Source: Darksidea phi
Lineage: Eukaryota; Ascomycota; Dothideomycetes; Pleosporales; Lentitheciaceae
Reading direction: 5' to 3'
DNA: 64,000 bases
Assembly (NCBI GenBank): GCA_030770425.1
Contig: JASJFT010000009.1
Coordinates: 186,001 to 250,000 of the forward strand
A program made the translations under genes and the position numbers. Below the pieces are notes generated by a model. The model was not told the origin of the DNA. It made no database searches and was given only the letters and a program-made list of their open reading frames with translations. Positions 17,071 to 58,207 of this stretch are shown here, piece by piece. The first letter of the stretch is position 1. Each line of letters starts with the position of its first letter.

Positions 17071-19540
17071 ATGTCTGAACACCCAGATTTTGATGGGCGA
17101 CCCGCAAAACGCGCGCGCCTCGACGACACGGTCGAGACGGCCCCCCTCACCCCGAGCATTGCTGCTACTACGTCCACAGAGCTACCGAAAGCCCCAATTG
17201 CCTCCCGGTCGGCCACAATTGATAGCGACCTAGAGAGAGAAGTCAGAGCTGGGATCACCGAGTATGTGTGTCCGGACAATCTGGGCTTTACAGGTACATT
17301 GAAGCAGCGGTACACCGATTTCTTGGTCAATGAGATTGGGCTTGATGGTGAGGTTTTGCATTTGAGGTTTGCAGGTGTGGAGAAAAAGAACGGGGAGAGG
17401 AAGGTGGATGGTGGCAGGCAGCGTGGCGAGTCGGTAGACTCGAAGCAGGAAGGAAAAATTGATGCGAAAATGGATAATACTGCTTTCGACGCTGCACAGA
17501 AGCAAGATGTGACAGCGGAGGCGAAACCGGAGAGCAGCAATGCTGAAGGAGTGCTCAACGGGTACGACGATATCAAATCCGAGAAGCAGCAAGATCAGCA
17601 GGTATGCGTGAGTCAAACTAACTACAACGCCTCTCACTCACGCTTTGCAGCCCTCCGATGACGATCTCGCGACCCTTCACTCGATATTCGGCGAGACTAC
17701 GACGTCGCAAATCATCTCGCTTGTCCAAGCAATACGTAGAAAGGAAGACAGGAAAGCAAAAGACTTCAAAGCTGTCATAGCACCTCCGATAGCTGACAAG
17801 GAGGTTCGAACCGAAGCCCACAAATCTCTGCGCCGAATTTTCCCAAACCTACTTGAGAGTTCTATGGAGGAAGACCAGTCGATCCGAATAAAGGCTGTGC
17901 CACCGCGGGAACGCAAAGGAAAGAACAAGGGAAGAGGCGGAGAGCGCAGCGATAACCGCGGTCAAGGCCCTGATCGTCGTAGGGGACAACTAGGGTGGGA
18001 AGAGCTCGGCGGTGAATTCCTGCATTTCACATTGTACAAAGAGAATAAGGACACCATGGAAATCATCGGATTTCTAGGAAGCAAGATCGGCACCGGCACG
18101 AAGTCGTTGAGCTTTGCGGGCACGAAGGATAGGCGTGCATGCACTGTTCAACGAGTGTGCGTGAAGCGCCAGACTGCGGAGCGCATGAATGCCTTCAATC
18201 AAACGCTCTTCAATGCAGCGATTGGTGACTTTTCCTACCATAACCGCGACCTCAATTTAGGCGATCTGGTGGGCAACGAGTTCACCATCACCCTGCGCGA
18301 CTGCCGGTTTCAAGGAGAGGAGGGAATGGACCTCGTACAGCGGACATTGCTCGCGAACAAGATTGTCTCAAAGGCCGTCGCCGACTTCACTAACAGTGGA
18401 TTCATCAATTACTATGGCCTGCAACGCTTCGGTTCCTTTGCAGCAAGCACCGACACCGTGGGGCTGAAAATGCTTCAAGGAGATCTCAAGGGTGCCATCG
18501 ATGACCTTTTGGCCTACTCCGAGACTGCACTCGCCGCTGCTGATGGCACTGGCGATGCAACTGTCCTTGTGTCTCAGGATGACCGAAATCGAGCGAAAGC
18601 CTTGCATCTCTGGAAGACAACCAAAAAGGGCGGTGCAACTCTAGACATTCTGCCAAAGAAGTGCAACGCCGAACGTAACATCATACAACATCTCAGTTCT
18701 CGGAATGGCAAATCGGGCAAGTACGACAGGTTGTCAGACTGGCAGGGCGCGCTTATGTGCATCCCGCGCACTCTGCGCCTTATGTATGTTCACGCATACC
18801 AGAGCCTTGTCTGGAACGTGGTAGCAGGCAAGCGGTGGACCACCTACGGTGACAGAGTCGTAGAAGGCGATCTCGTTCTCGTAAACGAACACAAAGATAA
18901 AGAGGAGTCCGCGCAATCCGGTCTCGACCAGACCATCGACCAGGACGGAGAAATCATCATCAACCCCGAAGGCGCCGACAGCGCTCTCGCAGCGGAGGAG
19001 CAATTCGAGCGTGCTCGTCCGCTCACCGCCAAAGAAGCAGCCAGTGGCAAGTACAGTATCTTTGACATTGTACTACCGCAGCCGGGTTTCGACGTGGAGT
19101 ACCCAAAGAACGATATTGGAAAGTTTTACAAGGAGTTCATGGGCAGCGAGAAGGGCGGTGGACTCGATCCCCACAACATGAGACGGAGCTGGAGAGAAGT
19201 CAGCCTCAGCGGAGGATATCGCAAGTTCATTGCACGACCACTTCAGCCGGTTACATATGAAGTTAGGGATTACGTCAGGGATGAGGAGCAATTCGTTGAG
19301 ACGGACTTGGATCGGTTGAAGAAGGATGGGCAGAGGGTCAACGGTGGAGCTCGCGATCGTGGGAAGGCGAAGGAGGATAAGACCGTGGAGATGGGAGATG
19401 GTGCTGAGAAGGAGAGGAAGATCGCTGTCGTGGTCACGCTGCAGTTGGGCTCCAGCCAGTATGCGACGGTGGCTTTGAGGGAGCTCATGAAGCCTGGCGG
19501 TGTAAAGGCGTATAAGTCTGAGTATATGGGTGGACGTTGA
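17071..19540 (+). CDS. PUS7: tRNA/U2 snRNA pseudouridine synthase Pus7 (TruD family)
   Basis: Two exons: 17071-17601 and 17651-19540, with a 49-bp GTATGC...TTGCAG intron carrying a CTAAC branch site; 806 residues. The enzyme isomerises uridine to pseudouridine; the yeast orthologue acts on U2 snRNA, pre-tRNA-Tyr, tRNA position 13 and some mRNAs. TruD signatures are present: SFAGTKDRRACTVQRVCV, where the Asp (about 337) is the catalytic nucleophile, then FINYYGLQRFG and, near the end, GGYRKFIARPLQPV and LGSSQYATVALRELMKPGG. The first 60 residues hold a basic stretch (RPAKRARLDD) that could be a nuclear signal. Residues about 107-180 and an Arg/Gly-rich stretch near 270-290 are low-complexity insertions that make it longer than the 676-residue yeast enzyme. 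Orthology is well supported. Confidence 0.93.
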
Positions 19541-43474: not shown

Positions 43475-46400
43475 CTATTTACCGCTCGATCGTAGCAGCT
43501 CGACCACGGCCTTGTACTCCCCCCTGTCTGCCCATATAAGCGGGGTCCGACCGTTCTTATCCTTCGAGTCGACCTCGACCTTGCCCGTCTCAAGCAGTAG
43601 CTTGACTACGGCCTCGTTCCCTCCCTCGGCTGCCCATGAGAGCGGCGTCCGACCGTATCGGTCGTCCTTCGAGTCGACCTCGACCTTGCCCGTCTCGAGC
43701 AGTAGCTTGACTACGGCCTCATGCCCTCCCTCGGCTGCCCATGAGAGCGGCGTCTGACCGTATCGGTCGTCCTTCGAGTCGACCTCGACCTTGCCCGTCT
43801 CGAGCAGTAGCTTGACTACGGCCTCGTGGCCTTCCTCGGCTGCCCATGAGAGCGGCGTCCGACCGTCCTCATCCTTTGAGTCGACCTCGACCTTGCCCGT
43901 CTCAAGCAGTAGCTTGACTACGGCCTCGTTACCTTCCTCAGCTGCCCATGAGAGCGGGGTCCGACCGTCCGGATCGTCCTTCGAGTCGACCTCGACCTTG
44001 CCCGTCTCGAGTAGTAGCTTGACTACGGCCTTGTACCCTCTCCCGACTGCCCATAAGAGCGGCGTCTGACCGTATCGATCGTCCTTCGAGTCGACCTCGA
44101 CCTTGCCTGTCTCGAGCAGTAGCTTGACTACGGCCTCATGCCCTCTCCTGGCTGCCTGTGAGAGCGGCGTCTGACCGTCCTCATCCTTTGAGTCGGCCTC
44201 GACCTTGCCCGTCTCGAGCAGTAGCTTGACTACGGCCTCGTGACCTTCCTCGGCTGCCCATATGAGCGGCGTCCGACCGGATCGATCGCCCGAGTCGACC
44301 TCGACCTTGCCCGTCTCGAGCAGTAGCTTGACTACGGCCTCATGCCCTCTCCTAGCTGCCCATATGAGCGGCGTCTGACCCCATCGATTGTCCTTCGAGT
44401 CGACCTCGACCTTGCCCGTCTCGAGCAGCAGCTTGACTACGGCCTCGTGCCCTTTATAGGCTGCCCATAAGAGCGGCGTCCGACCTTCTTCTTTATCCTT
44501 CGAGTCAACCTCGACCTTGCCCGTCTCGAGCAGTAGCTTGACTACGGCCTCGTTACCTTCCTCGACTGCCCATGAGAGCGGCGTCCGACCGTCCTTATCC
44601 TTCGAGTCGACCTCACCCTTGCCCGTCTCGAGCAGTAGCTTGACTATGGCCTCGTTGCCTTCCTCGGCTGCCCATGAGAGCGGCGTCCGACCGTTCTTAT
44701 CCTTTGAGTCGACCTCGACCTTGCCCGTCTCGAGCAGTAGCTTGACTACGGCCTCGTGGCCTTCCTCGGCTGCCCATGAGAGCGGCGTCTGACCGTATTG
44801 GCTATCCTTTAAGTCCGGATCGACACCATCTTTCGCAAGTAGTAGGTGTACTATAGTACCGTACCCGTTCCCTGCGGCCCATGATAGCGGTGTCAGACCG
44901 TATTGACTTTTCAGCGTATACGAACGCTCTACCCCAAACGCCATCTCATAGCCCTTGATTGCTTCTTGAAGCTTCTTTTCTGCCTCTTGATACTTTCCTG
45001 AATCTCCCAATATTAGTGCGACATTCCATATTCTAGTAGCCTTGTCCAAATGGCCTTCGAGCTCCGTCGAATAATCCAACACCAAATTGTTTGTTTGTAT
45101 TAGGGCTTCGTATCCTTCTGGGTGTTGAAACTTCTCTAAGAAATTTTCCCAGTCCCAGACAAGTATAAAGCTGCGGGTGAAGAGTATTCCTGATTGCAAA
45201 AGTTTTGGCCACTTCATATATCCACTCTCCGTTGGAATACTCTCTGGAGGCCTAGCTGCGATCATAATAATTTCGAAATAATCTTGACACGGTCTAATGA
45301 TCGTAGGCTTTGAGGCTCCTCGAAGAAGGCAGACGAGGTCTCCCTCTCGGATGGGTTTTGCTGAGGTCTGAAGATTCCAACGAGCACTCCTCCAGTGCCT
45401 ATGCATGAAAAAGACCTTGGGACCCTCTCTATCATCCTGGACGGTGTCGCTTTTTACAAAGGACACCTTACCAAGAATACAGCCCTTGCTTTTGACTACC
45501 GCAATCTCCCTATCACCGCCCAAAGTCCCCACAGATATCTCTTCACACAGTAGATACTTGGTCAGTCGCTGCAAGAGTTCCTCCCATGGAACTCTATAAT
45601 CAGGTAATAGGTTGGCCTTGCTAAGATTATCTGAGCTCATACCTAGCAAGGCGAACACTTTGTCATGGTGCTTAGTAGCCTCATGGGTACGGTACATATC
45701 TATCAGCTCGCCTAGTGGGCATATATCTAGAGAAGACCTGCCTGATCTGCTTGTAGAGAAATCAGGCCTAAAGATTGCTCTCCTGATTAGGTAGGTCACT
45801 GAACGGGCCAAACTCTGCAAGTCTACACGAGCTTCGTTGAACCCTTCGAATAAATCTACACCTAAGCAGAAGGCGTAACCATCAATCTCTGTAGGTCCAC
45901 ACATAATTAGGATATGTCGAGCCGCAGCAACTTCCTGAAGTACCTAGATCAACCTATTAGTAATTTTGTAATATCGACAAGTATCTGTCCCCATACCCAG
46001 ATGCGCCGAAACCACGGTCGTTCAAGCAGCGCAATAACTGCTTGTTGAATCGTTTCATTGTCCAAAGAGTATTTCGAGTTCCTGCCTCCAGCAACGCGTA
46101 TCTTTTGGAGTGCTTGGTCGCTGTTGTCCGATGCTTCTCCAAGCCAAACAATTACACGGGTTGCTTGAGCGTAGATCTTCGCCATAAACTGAATCTGTTG
46201 CTCTTTCTCTCGTTCATTTTTCTGGTTGATGCAAACAGCATCTATCCATATAATTCGTTCAATGGAGCGGTTTCGAAGACGTGACAGCGCCTCGTGAAGA
46301 TTTTCTGTCACAGGTAGCTCATGTTCGCTCGTGGAGTCATGTTCGCGTATGAAGATAGACCGAGGCGTGTCCGAACCGCCCCATACGTAGGATAAAGCGT

Positions 46401-47297: not shown

Positions 47298-50200
47298 TCA
47301 ACGGATTTCAAACACCATGGAAGGAATGACATCGTTGTCCTCCTCATCACCCTCATTCTGATACAACATCGCCTCTCCATCCATAAACCCATGTATATAA
47401 CACTCGCCCAACAGTTGATACGAGAAATAACCATCCTCACCAAGGCGCTGCTTCAGTCCTTCTTTGAAACCTTTGATAGCATCGTCTCGCTCCTTCTCCT
47501 CCTCCTCTGTTAGTGCTCGCTTCGCACCGTTCTTGCAATTTGTGTCATTTGAGGCGTTTTTGCCGTCTTGAACTCTTCCTTTCGCCTTTGCTTTCTCAAG
47601 TGCTTCTCTTTCGGCTTTCTTGATCCAACTCGGACGAATCTTATCACAGGAAGGAAGTTGTGCGTCGGTTTCGTTCGATAGTGGTGGAGTCAAAGCCCTA
47701 GGCATAGTTGTACTTCTGGATAAGACTATTGAGTCTCGTACGGTTCCGTCATCACTGCCGGTATCAGACTGCTCTTCCGCTCCTGCGATTGTGTCGCCCA
47801 GGACTTCTACACCCTGTATGGAAACATCGTCCTTCTCAGGTAGTACTTCGCTGTCCTCCAACTCCTCGTGAAACTGACCTGGCTTCGCAGAAGTCTGCCC
47901 GACATTGGACTTGAAGCTGACTGTTGTCACCCGGGATAATTTACCTGCCGAGTTCGATACCGACGGAGCTGTACTCTCGATCTCTTTCTTGTCCTGGGAA
48001 TTTCCCTTTTCGTAGACCTTATCGCTTCCTCCCTGTCCGGTCTGCTGTCTCCCTCCTTTATAGCGTTCGTTCCTCTCCTTTTCCAGCTCTTCATTAGCCC
48101 GCTTTTCATGTTCTTCGCGCAACTTTTCTTTCTTTTCCTTCACGATCTCTTTCCACCGACGACCCACTTTCAGCATATATTCGAACTCCCACCAGTCCAC
48201 AAGGCGTTTTGTCGACGCGATAGTCTCCCCCGAAAGACCATCAGCAGATCTGGTATTCTGTTCCGTGGCTAACGTAGAGCTGGTGGAGGTCCCATGCATG
48301 CCATTCATTGTCGTTATCTTTCCATTCTCTTCTTTGTCTCCTTGCTCTGACAGCTTGCGCTCATCTTCTTCGTCTTGCTTACGCTTCTCTGACCTCTTTT
48401 TGATGATCTCATCCATACGCTGTTTTCCATGGCTACGGATAGGCTCCTTTGCATTCTTTTCTTGTTTCATCCTCTGTTTGATAGCGAGCCATTCTTCATT
48501 CCGCCTCTGTACTCTGTAAACGTTGAATTCTTTAATGGCCTCGGTGACTCGACTGCTAAGGTAATCCTCAGCTTCTTTTTTAGTCCATTCCCTATCAGCC
48601 AATTTCCTCGTACAGTTCATGCGAGTCCATGCCTAAGTTTGGCAGTATAAAGTCAGTAATGCTCATCCAGAGGAGGCTTAGGGCATGTTCTTTAGACCAC
48701 AAGCTGCACTATGTCGCAAATGCGGCACGCACAGCGCTCATGCTTTACGTCCAAAGGCCCGATCTATACCGCAGTTTTACGTACCGTCATCTCCATCCAT
48801 TGCCGAAACTGTTGCGCCATCTCCTTTCGTTTCCGCCTCTCATGTTGTAGTTTACGCGCTTTGTATTGCGTCCAGCGCAGTCTCACTGTCTGAGCAAGGA
48901 AGTTGAGCTCCCAGCATAACTCTTTTTCGAATACCTCGTCGTCTTTCCTTGCGCTTTGTCGAAGGATGACCGGAACGCTCAGCCCGTACAAAATGCATAC
49001 CAAGTCGCCTTCCTTCACATCTTTACTGACGAGCCCGAGCCGACCTTTGTCTGTCCTTACAAGCGCCCGATTCCAGGTGACGGCTTGCACTCTTCGACAG
49101 AATTGTGAGACGACGGAATTTCGCTCGTAGTCAATCAAGTCAGTAGTGTTGACCGCGCCGCTTTCGTAGCCACCTTTCTTAAAAGTTTCCTCACATGCTC
49201 GCGAATAGTAGACTGGAGGGTTCTTACCATCTCGACCTCTGTCGGCTACGAGCGTACGCCAAAATGCATCCGGTGGCGTTCCTTTTGCGTCCATCCAGCC
49301 AGCGAGTTCAGCCCATTCTTTGGGAATCTGTCCGTTTCGAGCAACCTGCTCGACGCTGCGAATTTCATCTAGCTGAAATCCTCGCACATACATACTGTAG
49401 TGTTCGAGGTCAGACCTCTTGCGAAATTTGAGCGTCTTCGTATCGACTCTCTTCGTTTCGGCGGCCGAATAACTCTTGTAGATCGATCCAGGTGAACCGA
49501 CAAGTGGGTCCGCATTCTTGCGGCTCATCTTGAAGCCTCGTACTCCGGGTTGCTGGAACATGCCGTATGGGGCGCCCGAGAGCTGCGGAACCCAGGAAGG
49601 GAGGGGAAGGTCTCGACGATCGACCGTAGCAGCTGAGTCGCCGGTCGGTGTTCCTATTTTAGGATACGCGCCGACTTCGTTTCGAACGTTTTGTAGTTGT
49701 TGCTTCTGTTGCTGTGTATTACCCAAGGAAGATTGCCTAAGCAGGTTGCGTTTCATTTGTTCCATGCGCTCTTTCTCTTCACTTTGCTTCTGCTTCAGTG
49801 CTGCCCTTGCCCTTCTATCCAGATCCTTTTGTTCAGTGGCCCATGGACGACAAATGACGTCCAAAGCGCGACTGTGGTCGATCTGGAGAGATCGCTGAAT
49901 AGCAAACTCAATGAAATCCCTACAGACGTCGACGTAAGGAAGCTCGTAATCAACGTTGTACCTAAAGGTGGCGGTAGGAGTCAGCGAATCTCTTTCAATG
50001 GGCCGTCAACAGCTTTCGAATCAGACAGCAAGCTGCGTTGTACCGCGAAACTGAATGTCTTGCGGGGGTAATACTATCTATATTGCAAGTGACTTACTTT
50101 TTCCTTTGGGTGAAAAGTTCTAGCCCGGCCCGAGCGTACTCGGATGATTGCGGAGCATCTGTGCGCGCAGCTCTTGGAGTTGTGTCCTTGGATATCGCAA

Positions 50201-51480
50201 GCAATGCATATATAGTATCATGCGGCACAGTCGTGTTGAATATGGTCAGACTTGACACGAGATATTCGAGGCTTAACAAAGGCCTCATGTTGTTCTTCGT
50301 GGAGCCTGTGACGACCTCTTTAACACGGGCACCGACCGTATTGCCTGTCTGTGTGGTTCGGACGGCAGGAACTGGCGACCCGACCCTACTTTCTGGATCT
50401 GAATAAGCGTCTGAGTCGGATGATTGATCATCGTCATCGGCAGTAGATCGAGACGCGTGTTCTTCTCTATAGTCTCTAAACAGACGATCAGTGGCTTCAA
50501 CGAGAAGACTTGCACCGAGAGCCGAAACGTAGTCGAATAGGCGAGGTACGTGGTGATGCTTCGAATCCTTTCTCATGACTTCTGATAGCCGATGAGTTGC
50601 AGTCTCTACTTCCACGAATAGCTCCACGGCAATAGCAAACTTCTTCCACGAGATCTTGTCTTGCCCGCAGTAGATGACCGCCTTTTTGGCGAGGGCAATT
50701 TCTTGAACCACCCATCGCCTTGAAAACCAGGGCCTTTGCATGAGCTCAAGAAGAGCGCGCCAGTTCCTGCCTTCGTTTCCATCGCTGCAAAGTTCGTCGA
50801 AGTTTTGCAATTGCAGAACATCGTGTTTGATGAAACGCAAGGCCATCTGGCTTGATTTGTTTTCCTCCCCTAGCCAAATGCATACTCGATCGGCACAACC
50901 ATAAATGTCGTACATCATTTCGACCTGGTGATTCTTCTCCAAGAGATCTATGACAACAAATCAGTGGCTAGTTCGAACATACGCTAGAGATCGTGGCTGA
51001 GTAGTTTCACTTACTCTCTTGATTTATACAAACAGCATCAATCCAGAGATATCGATCTTTGACGGTGTGCCGAAGCGCTTTCAAGGCAGCGAAAAGATTG
51101 GGGCTGACACTCTTTCTGTACAATTTTCGATCTTTCCGAATGTGGATATCCTTGATGTCGGTATCGGTTCCCCAGCACCAGGACAGGGCCTCGTACTTGT
51201 AAGGGGTAGTTCCTTTCCCGAGAGGCTGCAGAACAAGTTCGCACTCGATATGGGGATTCTCAGTGCTGCTAGGCACGAGCTTCAGAAGTCGGATCGCGCC
51301 GCGTTGTTTCGGTAAAGGTTCGTAGTCAAAGGTCTCGTATTTGTAGGTTTTTAGTAGTCTACGAGTTCGTCGGGGTCCCGGGTGACGGAAGTTCGTTTCT
51401 TCCCGGGCCGCATTATTGTATACATCTCGACGGCGAGGAGAGGCTGGCCATTCGACGTCTGATTCGTCCCCGGAGCTCAT
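47298..51480 (-). CDS. HET-domain protein with long coiled-coil insertions
   Basis: Exons 51480-51015, 50947-50098, 49961-48785 and 48632-47298 join in phase to 1275 residues; introns are 67, 136 and 152 bp. The N-terminal HET domain has YKYEALSWCWG near 98-108, RYLWIDAVCINQEN across intron 1, RVCIWLGEENKSS, then RPWFSRRWVVQEIALAKKAV. NTTVPHDTIYALLAISKD and, after intron 2, YNVDYELPYVDVCRDFIEF are the standard region after HET. The C-terminus CYIHGFMDGEAMLYQ is the usual HET-protein tail. Unusual are long charged Lys/Glu/Arg-rich insertions (around 540-580 and 890-1070) predicted as coiled coils, which push the protein well past the usual 600-800 residues. The ATG at 51480 is used because the longer frame upstream has no better start. 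Confidence 0.9.
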
Positions 51481-56522: not shown

Positions 56523-57284
56523 TGGCCCAAAGGTCCCACGCATCCGTTGAGGCGAAGCAGCTCCTTCCGCAGATCAGCAGAATGTGCCTCGCAAGGCAGA
56601 AGGCGCGCCACACTAGACCCACGTGCTTCACGGTGCACTAGCGATATATCGATGACGGCACAGTATGTTAGCCATGCGGGAACCGTCGTCACCGGTAGTC
56701 CTCGCTTGCCTTTCGCAAGAAACATAACGCCCCCTTTTACGACCCGCATGCACACCCTACGAACTAACGTACATAGGCCCTTCCTCTTGTGGCCATTTCT
56801 TTCATTTGTTTCTTTTGAGGCGCATCGATCGTGATGACTTGTTGCATGTTCAGCGTTCGAGCACTGTCTTAGCGAGGAGTTTTTGGGACTGAGAACTTAT
56901 GAGATTGGACACACACAGAAAGGTCGTTGGCGGAAACGGATTGTTGGAATAAATACATAGTAATTAGGATGAGCGATGAGATGGTGTGCTGTAGATAGAA
57001 ATGCTAAACACCTAATGACAGCCCTACCCACATCTCAGGCATCAGAATTGTTTTGATGTCTTCCTCTCAAGTATTCTTGTTCGCCAGTAACAATGTGACG
57101 TATCATAGCTATCAATCCCAGCAAGTAATCCCTCCATATTCACAAATACATACGGCAAATACACGCGGCCTCATTCTCCACATCCATGGACACATCTTCT
57201 CTCCCCTCTTACTTCTCCCTCCCTTCCCCTTTCTCATAGTATATATACCAATCAGCGCTCAAAAATATCTATATTCCAAAAAAC
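56523..57284. other. Intergenic before the tRNA gene
   Basis: 3' region of the coiled-coil protein gene; AT-rich towards 57280, as is common just upstream of Pol III genes. No other gene seen. Confidence 0.45.
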
Positions 57285-57320
57285 GGCCTTGTGGTCTAGT
57301 CGTATGATTCCTGCTTTGGG

Positions 57321-57337
57321 TTCTCTCTTAACACGAA
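57321..57337 (+). other. Canonical tRNA intron (37/38), 17 nt
   Basis: Lies one base 3' of the anticodon, the standard place for tRNA introns cut by tRNA endonuclease. The boundary could shift by one base because T flanks both sides. Confidence 0.75.
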
Positions 57338-57353
57338 TGCAGGAGGTCCCGGG

Positions 57354-57404
57354 GTAAGTCTGGCATCTGGAGAGAAGGGGTATAGGAAACTAATTGTGCT
57401 GCAG
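57354..57404 (+). other. 51-nt spliceosomal-type intron in tRNA T arm
   Basis: Begins GTAAGT and ends GCTGCAG. A perfect fungal branch consensus ACTAAT lies at 57389-57394, about ten bases before the acceptor. Length equals the first UCH37 intron nearby (51 nt). It falls exactly between tRNA positions 53 and 54 with nothing of the mature tRNA lost. It is not at a tRNA-endonuclease site and splits the internal B box. Confidence 0.7.
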
Positions 57405-57424
57405 TTCAAATCCCGGCGGGGCCC

Positions 57425-58207
57425 GATTGGTTATTTTCTTTTTGCTGCTTGCTTTTTGGTTTTATCAAAGTGGTTGGGGAAAGGGGGAGGGAAAGATGGT
57501 TTGGTGGGGAGGAGTGGATGGGGTGCTGTTTGCGGTGTGATGGAGAGCGGTGTGAATCTTGTGAGTTACGTGCAGGCTTTTAGACAAGAAAATAGCACAA
57601 TACTACCAAAATGTCTTATTCAACATCGCGATCGCGGACGGATCTTTTGAAGGCTTCTTTCGACCACGGACGGCAACGCCCTTTCGGCGTCTAATTCGCC
57701 TTCCGTTCCGAGACCCTCGGGGAAGATACACAAAGCTTTTGTACGTTTGCAAAGACACAGGCCCAAATAAACGCTTTTATTCGTTGGTCCATAAAAGAAT
57801 ACTTATTCAACATGGGTGGGTCTTACAGGAATGGCTACTGAGTGTGCGTGTGGTGTATTTCAGCCCGGAACATATCTTCTTGGCTAGACCATTCTCAACG
57901 ATCCCGGACTTCAGCTAGATCAGCTAGAATTCTGATGAGGTCTCTGTACTGCTGGGAATGATAGCTTTTGGGCGATGATACTTCTAGGGGCTGTGTCGCC
58001 AGACATTCAACGCAGGTGTAGTACGAATACGATTTTTGTAGCTGACGCATCCCATATCATTATACCTAATTAGACCGAGGGAGGAGCCATGCTGGCGAGC
58101 GTGCATACTTCTTACCTCTTTCTGCGTGAATTGAGGTCGGCGTGGATCCTATACCAGCAGTCCAATGATGTAAACCATTAATCCGGCCAAACCTCTTATC
58201 CTACTCC
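57425..58207. other. Intergenic
   Basis: After the Pol III terminator no further gene is recognised until the 3' end of the UCH37-type gene. Confidence 0.45.
57433..57444 (+). terminator. Pol III T-run terminator
   Basis: TTTT followed by TTTTT within 20 nt of the tRNA 3' end (ATTTTCTTTTTG), as expected for a Pol III transcription unit. Confidence 0.65.

Follow-up and report, generated by a model that had tools for sequence, protein, structure and literature searches.

Introns of eukaryotic tRNA genes are located at position 37/38 and are cut out by an endonuclease. The tRNA-Pro(UGG) gene found on the forward strand of the window, i.e., the 64,000-nucleotide stretch of the Darksidea phi genome analyzed here, raises the question of how a tRNA could be produced from a gene that carries not only an intron of this kind, but also a second block, with GT-AG ends, in its T arm. 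We argue below that this block is very likely a U2-type spliceosomal intron residing in a nuclear tRNA gene that would be read by RNA polymerase III (Pol III), and that it is one of at least 18 such introns in this genome.

The tRNA-Pro(UGG) gene of the window

The gene occupies positions 57285..57424 (+ strand), as indicated by its sequence, by a match to the Rfam tRNA model and by an excision test, and contains two introns. Its first part (57285..57320, +) comprises the 5′ acceptor strand, the D arm and the anticodon arm up to base 37, including the anticodon UGG, the edge towards the adjoining intron being hand-placed. This canonical 17-nt intron at 37/38 (57321..57337, +) is the expected substrate of the tRNA endonuclease and can form three of the four central-helix pairs and all three outer pairs of a bulge-helix-bulge structure. 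It is followed by the 3′ anticodon strand, the variable loop and the 5′ strand of the T stem as far as base 53 (57338..57353, +), after which the tRNA is interrupted at 53/54 by a 51-nt block of spliceosomal type (57354..57404, +) that starts with GTAAGT and ends with GCAG. A branch-point motif, CTAAT (57390..57394, +), places the candidate branch A at 57393, 11 nt before the 3′ end of the block. The 3′ exon (57405..57424, +) supplies the T loop (TTCAAAT), the 3′ strands of the T and acceptor stems and the discriminator base. A first-pass annotation had described a block lying exactly between positions 53 and 54, its donor, branch motif and acceptor, and a separate, normal 17-nt intron at 37/38; all of these were confirmed, the exact coordinates of the block included.

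That removal of the block restores the T arm, as had also been proposed, holds as well: five of five T-stem pairs and the TTCAAAT loop are obtained, together with the B-box-like sequence AGTTCAAATCC (57403..57413, +), which fits 9 of 10 scored positions and is re-formed because the terminal AG of the intron supplies G53. The Rfam tRNA model produces a full-length match to 57285-57424 with an unmatched stretch of 57 nt in the T loop, scoring 24 bits against a cut-off of 29 and thus remaining below threshold. When the locus is searched with and without the block, a check suggested with the first description, ARAGORN is silent on the unspliced gene and calls no tRNA in the window, whereas a tRNA over the right span is reported once the block has been removed. 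The latter is named Ser(UGA), however, because ARAGORN misplaces the 37/38 intron.

Interrupted tRNA genes in the genome

The block of the window is no one-off: at least 18 tRNA genes of the assembly are interrupted, which is a genome-wide property. The same draft assembly (51.35 Mb, 477 contigs) was searched using the Rfam tRNA model, several A-box patterns, one T-arm pattern and BLAST with the window gene. The 17 further interrupted genes correspond to Pro (2), Gly (3), Gln (2), Ala (2), initiator-type Met (2), Glu (3), His, Lys and Trp. Whereas the window Pro(UGG) gene is interrupted at 53/54, the second Pro(UGG) gene (contig C179) carries a different GT-AG block at 58/59. The remaining blocks are located at 58/59 in Pro(CGG) (C157), at 60/61 in three Gly(GCC) genes (C79, C290 and C437), at 53/54 in Gln(UUG) (C149) and His(GUG) (C16), at 54/55 in Gln(CUG) (C335) and in two initiator-type Met genes (both on C312), at 52/53 in one Ala(AGC) gene (C79) and at 58/59 in another (C132), at 52/53 in two Glu(CUC) genes (C335 and C440), at 51/52 in Glu(UUC) (C445), at 28/29, in the anticodon stem, in Lys(UUU) (C436), and at 45/46, in the variable loop, in Trp(CCA) (C57). 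The T arm is the site of the block in 16/18 genes, a clustering that is partly due to ascertainment, since the census favours genes with an intact A box.

A hand count gave 37 other nuclear tRNA genes without a block, so that 18 of 55 are interrupted. Amino-acid names were taken from the anticodon, and ARAGORN gave several of the uninterrupted genes other names. The 55 genes exclude contigs C304 and C417, whose dense tRNA gene clusters are evidently mitochondrial, as well as a degenerate locus (L028), two mitochondrial-looking loci (L033 and L058) and five tRNA-like repeats or otherwise odd sequences (L075, L090, L093, L096 and L098). The census is incomplete and biased to a standard A box: no genes for Tyr, elongator Met, Val(AAC/CAC), Arg(ACG/UCU), Leu(CAA/UAG), Ser(CGA) or Gly(CCC) were obtained by it. 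Note also that pattern counts as such are not informative. The T-arm pattern gave 19 matches versus 22 for the reversed control, which makes the count itself meaningless; its 19 matches consisted of five known genes, seven matches with a junction AG that were inspected, and seven without AG that were left aside, and the seven inspected ones proved to be two new tRNA genes, two mRNA introns and three matches corresponding to nothing. Likewise, the first A-box pattern gave 28 matches versus 38 for its control, the tRNA genes being recognised from the surrounding sequence. Exact patterns of the Gly and Glu exons had no match in the viral or genome contig collections, as expected for a fungus.

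Putative splice signals, length and sequence of the blocks

All 18 blocks start with GT and end with AG. The donors are GTAAGT (7), GTAAGC (3), GTGAGT (3) and five other variants found once each, GTNNG[TC] fitting 17/18 with GTATGA as the exception. The acceptors are TAG (9), CAG (8) and AAG (1); the last belongs to the Gln(UUG) intron, which must end at AAG despite a CAG 3 nt upstream. Block lengths range from 49 to 55 nt, with a single block of 66 nt. A branch motif of the form [CT]TRAY, whose A precedes the 3′ end by 9-12 nt, occurs in every block (CTAAY in 14, CTGAC in 2 and TTRAC in 2, CTRAY thus accounting for 16/18). When the block interiors were shuffled 5000 times, this motif appeared at 9-12 nt in a mean of 0.85 and a maximum of 5 of the 18. 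As the anatomy of the window block recurs in 17 other tRNA genes and exceeds what shuffling gives, it is more than chance. TTTT is absent from all 18 introns (2.9 expected under shuffling, P = 0.03), which is weak evidence, since the exon parts of 5/18 genes do contain TTTT.

Compared pairwise, the introns are weakly similar at most, their signals being alike and their sequences not. Apart from the self-match, whole-gene BLAST of the genome (E ≤ 0.001) produced a single hit, covering the 5′ 67 bases of the other Pro(UGG) gene; hence no near-identical, introner-like copy of the window intron was found by this search, which answers in part the earlier question of whether further copies of the 51-nt block exist.

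The block had also been said to have the size of nearby mRNA introns. This agrees with the three protein-gene introns that were placed, i.e., a 49-nt intron in a TruD/Pus7 gene of the window (17602..17650, +) and two others of 50 and 57 nt, against 49-66 nt for the tRNA blocks, in a sample that is biased, as two of the three came from a pattern requiring a branch motif and AG. In these two the branch A is found 11-12 nt from the 3′ end, the position demanded by the pattern, and in the only mRNA intron that no motif search had selected, CTAAC lies 29 nt from the 3′ end.

Effect of excision

After excision of the blocks, 7/7 acceptor pairs, 5/5 T-stem pairs and 6/6 positions of the T-loop consensus are present in 18/18 genes. 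For the 14 T-arm genes identified by then, every possible deletion of 30-80 nt was scored by brute force: the GT-AG block reaches the maximum score in 14/14 genes, being the sole optimum in six and sharing it with ties (3-9) in the other eight. ARAGORN, run on 16 of the 18 genes, called a tRNA in 5/16 in the unspliced and in 16/16 in the spliced form, with the right anticodon in 12/16 of the latter.

Transcription signals

A T-run of at least four residues begins 0-25 nt after the gene in all 18 cases. In the window, TTTT and TTTTT (57434..57443, +), starting 9 and 14 nt 3′ of the Pro(UGG) gene, form a predicted Pol III terminator. On the 5′ side, TATATATA (57240..57247, +) is a possible TATA element that might act in Pol III initiation through TFIIIB, judging from its position at -45 to -38. 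The A box is untouched in the interrupted genes, for most of which it served as the search handle, and together with the T-runs it suggests transcription by Pol III. The best B-box match in unspliced DNA reaches 8-10/10 in 15/18 genes and 6-7/10 in the other three; a match of at least 8/10 survives in these 15 because AG|TTC re-forms GTTC, because GTANG after TTCGA fits the consensus or, in one initiator Met gene (L094, C312:8339), because the intron itself carries a B-box match, TGTTCGATTCC. The idea that introns are placed so as to spare the B box is not borne out, the mean match being 8.56 as observed versus 8.20 for alternative T-arm sites, which is not significant. Not every Pol III gene is affected, as U6 gives a full-length match to the U6 model without an apparent insert, as far as a model match can tell.

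Uninterrupted paralogues

Several interrupted genes have uninterrupted relatives with the same exons. An uninterrupted initiator Met gene (C334) is identical to a spliced C312 gene at 72/72 bases, an uninterrupted Glu(CUC) gene (C198) is identical to both interrupted Glu(CUC) genes outside the 37/38 intron, and an uninterrupted Ala(AGC) gene (C429) equals the C132 gene except for the 37/38 intron of the former. Since exons are shared in this way, the blocks of initiator Met, Glu(CUC) and Ala(AGC) are clean insertions of approximately 50 nt. The three Gly(GCC) genes have common exons and a common block site, while their introns have strongly diverged and have kept donor, branch and acceptor, as would be expected if splicing had been selected for since duplication. 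The similarity of their intron interiors is weak (matched by 12 to 55 of 300 shuffles), and the shared site makes a common origin of these introns likely, though not proven.

These paralogues bear on the possibility that the interrupted genes are dead and that intact copies supply the cell. Initiator Met, Glu(CUC), Ala(AGC) and His(GUG) are indeed also represented by uninterrupted copies, and the passages considered of a 2014 review note that eukaryotic D- and T-arm insertions are mostly seen in a single member of a large set of synonymous genes and are regarded as pseudogenes (PMC4090602). Yet eight isoacceptors were found here only as interrupted nuclear genes: all three Gly(GCC) genes, both Pro(UGG) genes and the single genes for Pro(CGG), Gln(UUG), Gln(CUG), Lys(UUU), Trp(CCA) and Glu(UUC) carry a block, and no uninterrupted nuclear copy of any of them was found among the best-scoring candidates in this draft assembly. 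This absence is strong evidence and not exhaustive, as the search engine scores the best candidates only and the assembly is a draft. Intact Pro(UGG) copies elsewhere, which the first-pass annotation had named as part of the observation that would speak against its reading, did not turn up; the outcome was the opposite, the sole other gene found being interrupted too. Since these tRNAs are indispensable to a cell and no uninterrupted gene for them was found, some of the blocks, at least, have to be removed. Moreover, acceptor and T stems are intact in 18/18 genes, and random insertions would not have common GT-AG ends, lengths and branch positions. A collection of dead genes is very improbable.

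How the blocks may be removed

No more probable than dead genes is excision of the blocks by the tRNA endonuclease via a bulge-helix-bulge, in the manner of archaea, Cyanidioschyzon and nucleomorphs. This idea has precedents in archaeal D- and T-arm introns, including some at 53/54, and in introns in the D and T arms of nucleomorph and C. merolae tRNAs, as far as the relevant passages of PMC4090602 describe them. The blocks as placed, however, show a 4/4 central helix in 0/18 and a 3/3 outer helix in 0/18 cases, and a 4/4 central helix is reached by 2/18 GT-AG blocks when a slide of 2 nt is allowed. Of eight canonical 37/38 introns of the same genome, seven have 3/3 outer pairs with at least 2/4 central pairs; the strict 4/4 test is insensitive, being passed by one of the eight, and is supporting evidence only. 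Endonuclease cleavage would also leave the GT, branch and AG signals without a role. A self-splicing or novel mechanism that mimics the GT-AG rules appears less probable still: the signals fit the spliceosomal consensus, and Rfam scans of the window locus and nine other loci gave no group I or group II intron. At approximately 50 nt, the blocks fall below the size of the known self-splicing introns. An assembly artefact or contamination is equally far-fetched. The genome is a draft of 477 contigs, but the 18 genes are spread over many of them and their blocks differ in sequence and site. In addition, the 503-kb contig of the window bears Pleosporales protein genes, its GH125 and TruD/Pus7 proteins being 87% and 84% identical, respectively, to those of Lentithecium fluviatile (Pleosporales, Lentitheciaceae), and no assembly error would furnish tRNA genes with GT-AG introns that carry branch points.

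Starting from the observed anatomy, its recurrence, the restored acceptor stem and T arm and the same-exon paralogues, we infer removal by the spliceosome and the following order of steps. Pol III would read the precursor through both introns as far as the downstream T-run. The spliceosome would then take out the GT-AG intron by the lariat route, thus restoring the T arm, and the refolded tRNA body could then be processed by RNase P and tRNase Z and by the tRNA endonuclease, which would cut out the 37/38 intron.

Relation to known systems

tRNA splicing is defined as spliceosome-independent in reviews, judging from the passages considered of PMC13149111, and the 2014 review regards eukaryotic T-arm insertions as likely pseudogenes, except in nucleomorphs and C. 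merolae (PMC4090602, in part). In an open-access library, no report of spliceosomal introns in tRNA genes was found. A close parallel is provided by fungal U6 genes: in fission yeast, U6 RNA, a product of Pol III, is described, in the text considered, as having an mRNA-type intron (PMC10484740), i.e., a spliceosomal intron with GT-AG ends in a short Pol III transcript, as proposed here. A B-box match inside the Schizosaccharomyces U6 intron, indicated by the title of Frendewey 1990 as cited in the same paper, resembles TGTTCGATTCC in the initiator Met intron. Unlike U6, which is a single-gene snRNA, the present case concerns tRNA, many genes and about eight amino-acid identities. Short spliceosomal introns outside protein genes are also known from ascomycete rRNA genes, among them a 57-bp example from Cladonia (PMC8527467, in part). 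Those introns, however, reside in large RNAs made by Pol I rather than in Pol III tRNA genes. A class of 18S introns is reported across Pleosporales, including Lentitheciaceae (PMC11889510, in part).

The canonical 37/38 introns, one of which is present in the window gene too, differ from the blocks in site, in signals and presumably in the enzyme that removes them. The tRNA introns of archaea, C. merolae and nucleomorphs share with the blocks their location in the T arm, D arm or anticodon stem, the archaeal ones including 53/54, but they are ascribed to the endonuclease and a bulge-helix-bulge; the non-canonical nucleomorph introns cited there measure 3-24 nt, and no GT-AG or branch signals are described for them in the passages considered (PMC4090602). 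Introner-like elements document recent spliceosomal intron gains in the Dothideomycetes, the same fungal class, with no mention of tRNA found in the portion considered (PMC4457414). They differ from the tRNA introns in forming near-identical families in protein genes, whereas the tRNA introns are mutually dissimilar. The route of intron gain is something we likewise infer rather than observe; an introner-like origin of the window intron, considered in the first-pass annotation, is not supported, as no copy family was detected by whole-gene BLAST.

Implications

We consider it quite probable that this genome uses a third route of tRNA intron removal, with about one-third of the nuclear tRNA genes found (18/55), and all found copies of several essential isoacceptors, needing the spliceosome. 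If so, translation would depend directly on pre-mRNA splicing, tRNA supply would be tied to splicing capacity, and single precursors such as that of the window Pro(UGG) gene would be cut by two unrelated systems, the spliceosome and the tRNA endonuclease. The rule that tRNA splicing is spliceosome-independent would gain an essential exception of genomic scale, and the spliceosome would routinely handle very short, uncapped and highly structured Pol III transcripts. The blocks would further provide a set of young and precisely dated insertions for studying how spliceosomal introns are gained, the uninterrupted paralogues serving as controls. Other genomes may hold such genes unseen, because standard tRNA finders miss or misname them.

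Additional observations

Among the sequences set aside during the census, three near-identical tRNA-Ser-like sequences (GGAGGGATGGTCGAGTGGT...; L090, L093 and L098, at C187:3187, C425:82584 and C158:12990, respectively) have an unusual anticodon arm and a common 3′ flank, and may be a tRNA-derived repeat or an organellar-type tRNA. At L096 (C29:73791-73885), a degenerate tRNA of Gly type precedes a second piece that is T-arm-like, an arrangement resembling a tRNA-derived repeat. A tRNA-Ile(UAU) gene (L046, C475:62419-62525) has a long 37/38 region without cleanly placeable intron boundaries. The minus strand of the window also encodes an 809-aa ORF consisting largely of ankyrin repeats (43478-45904) and an ORF with a heterokaryon-incompatibility (HET) domain (50097-50942).
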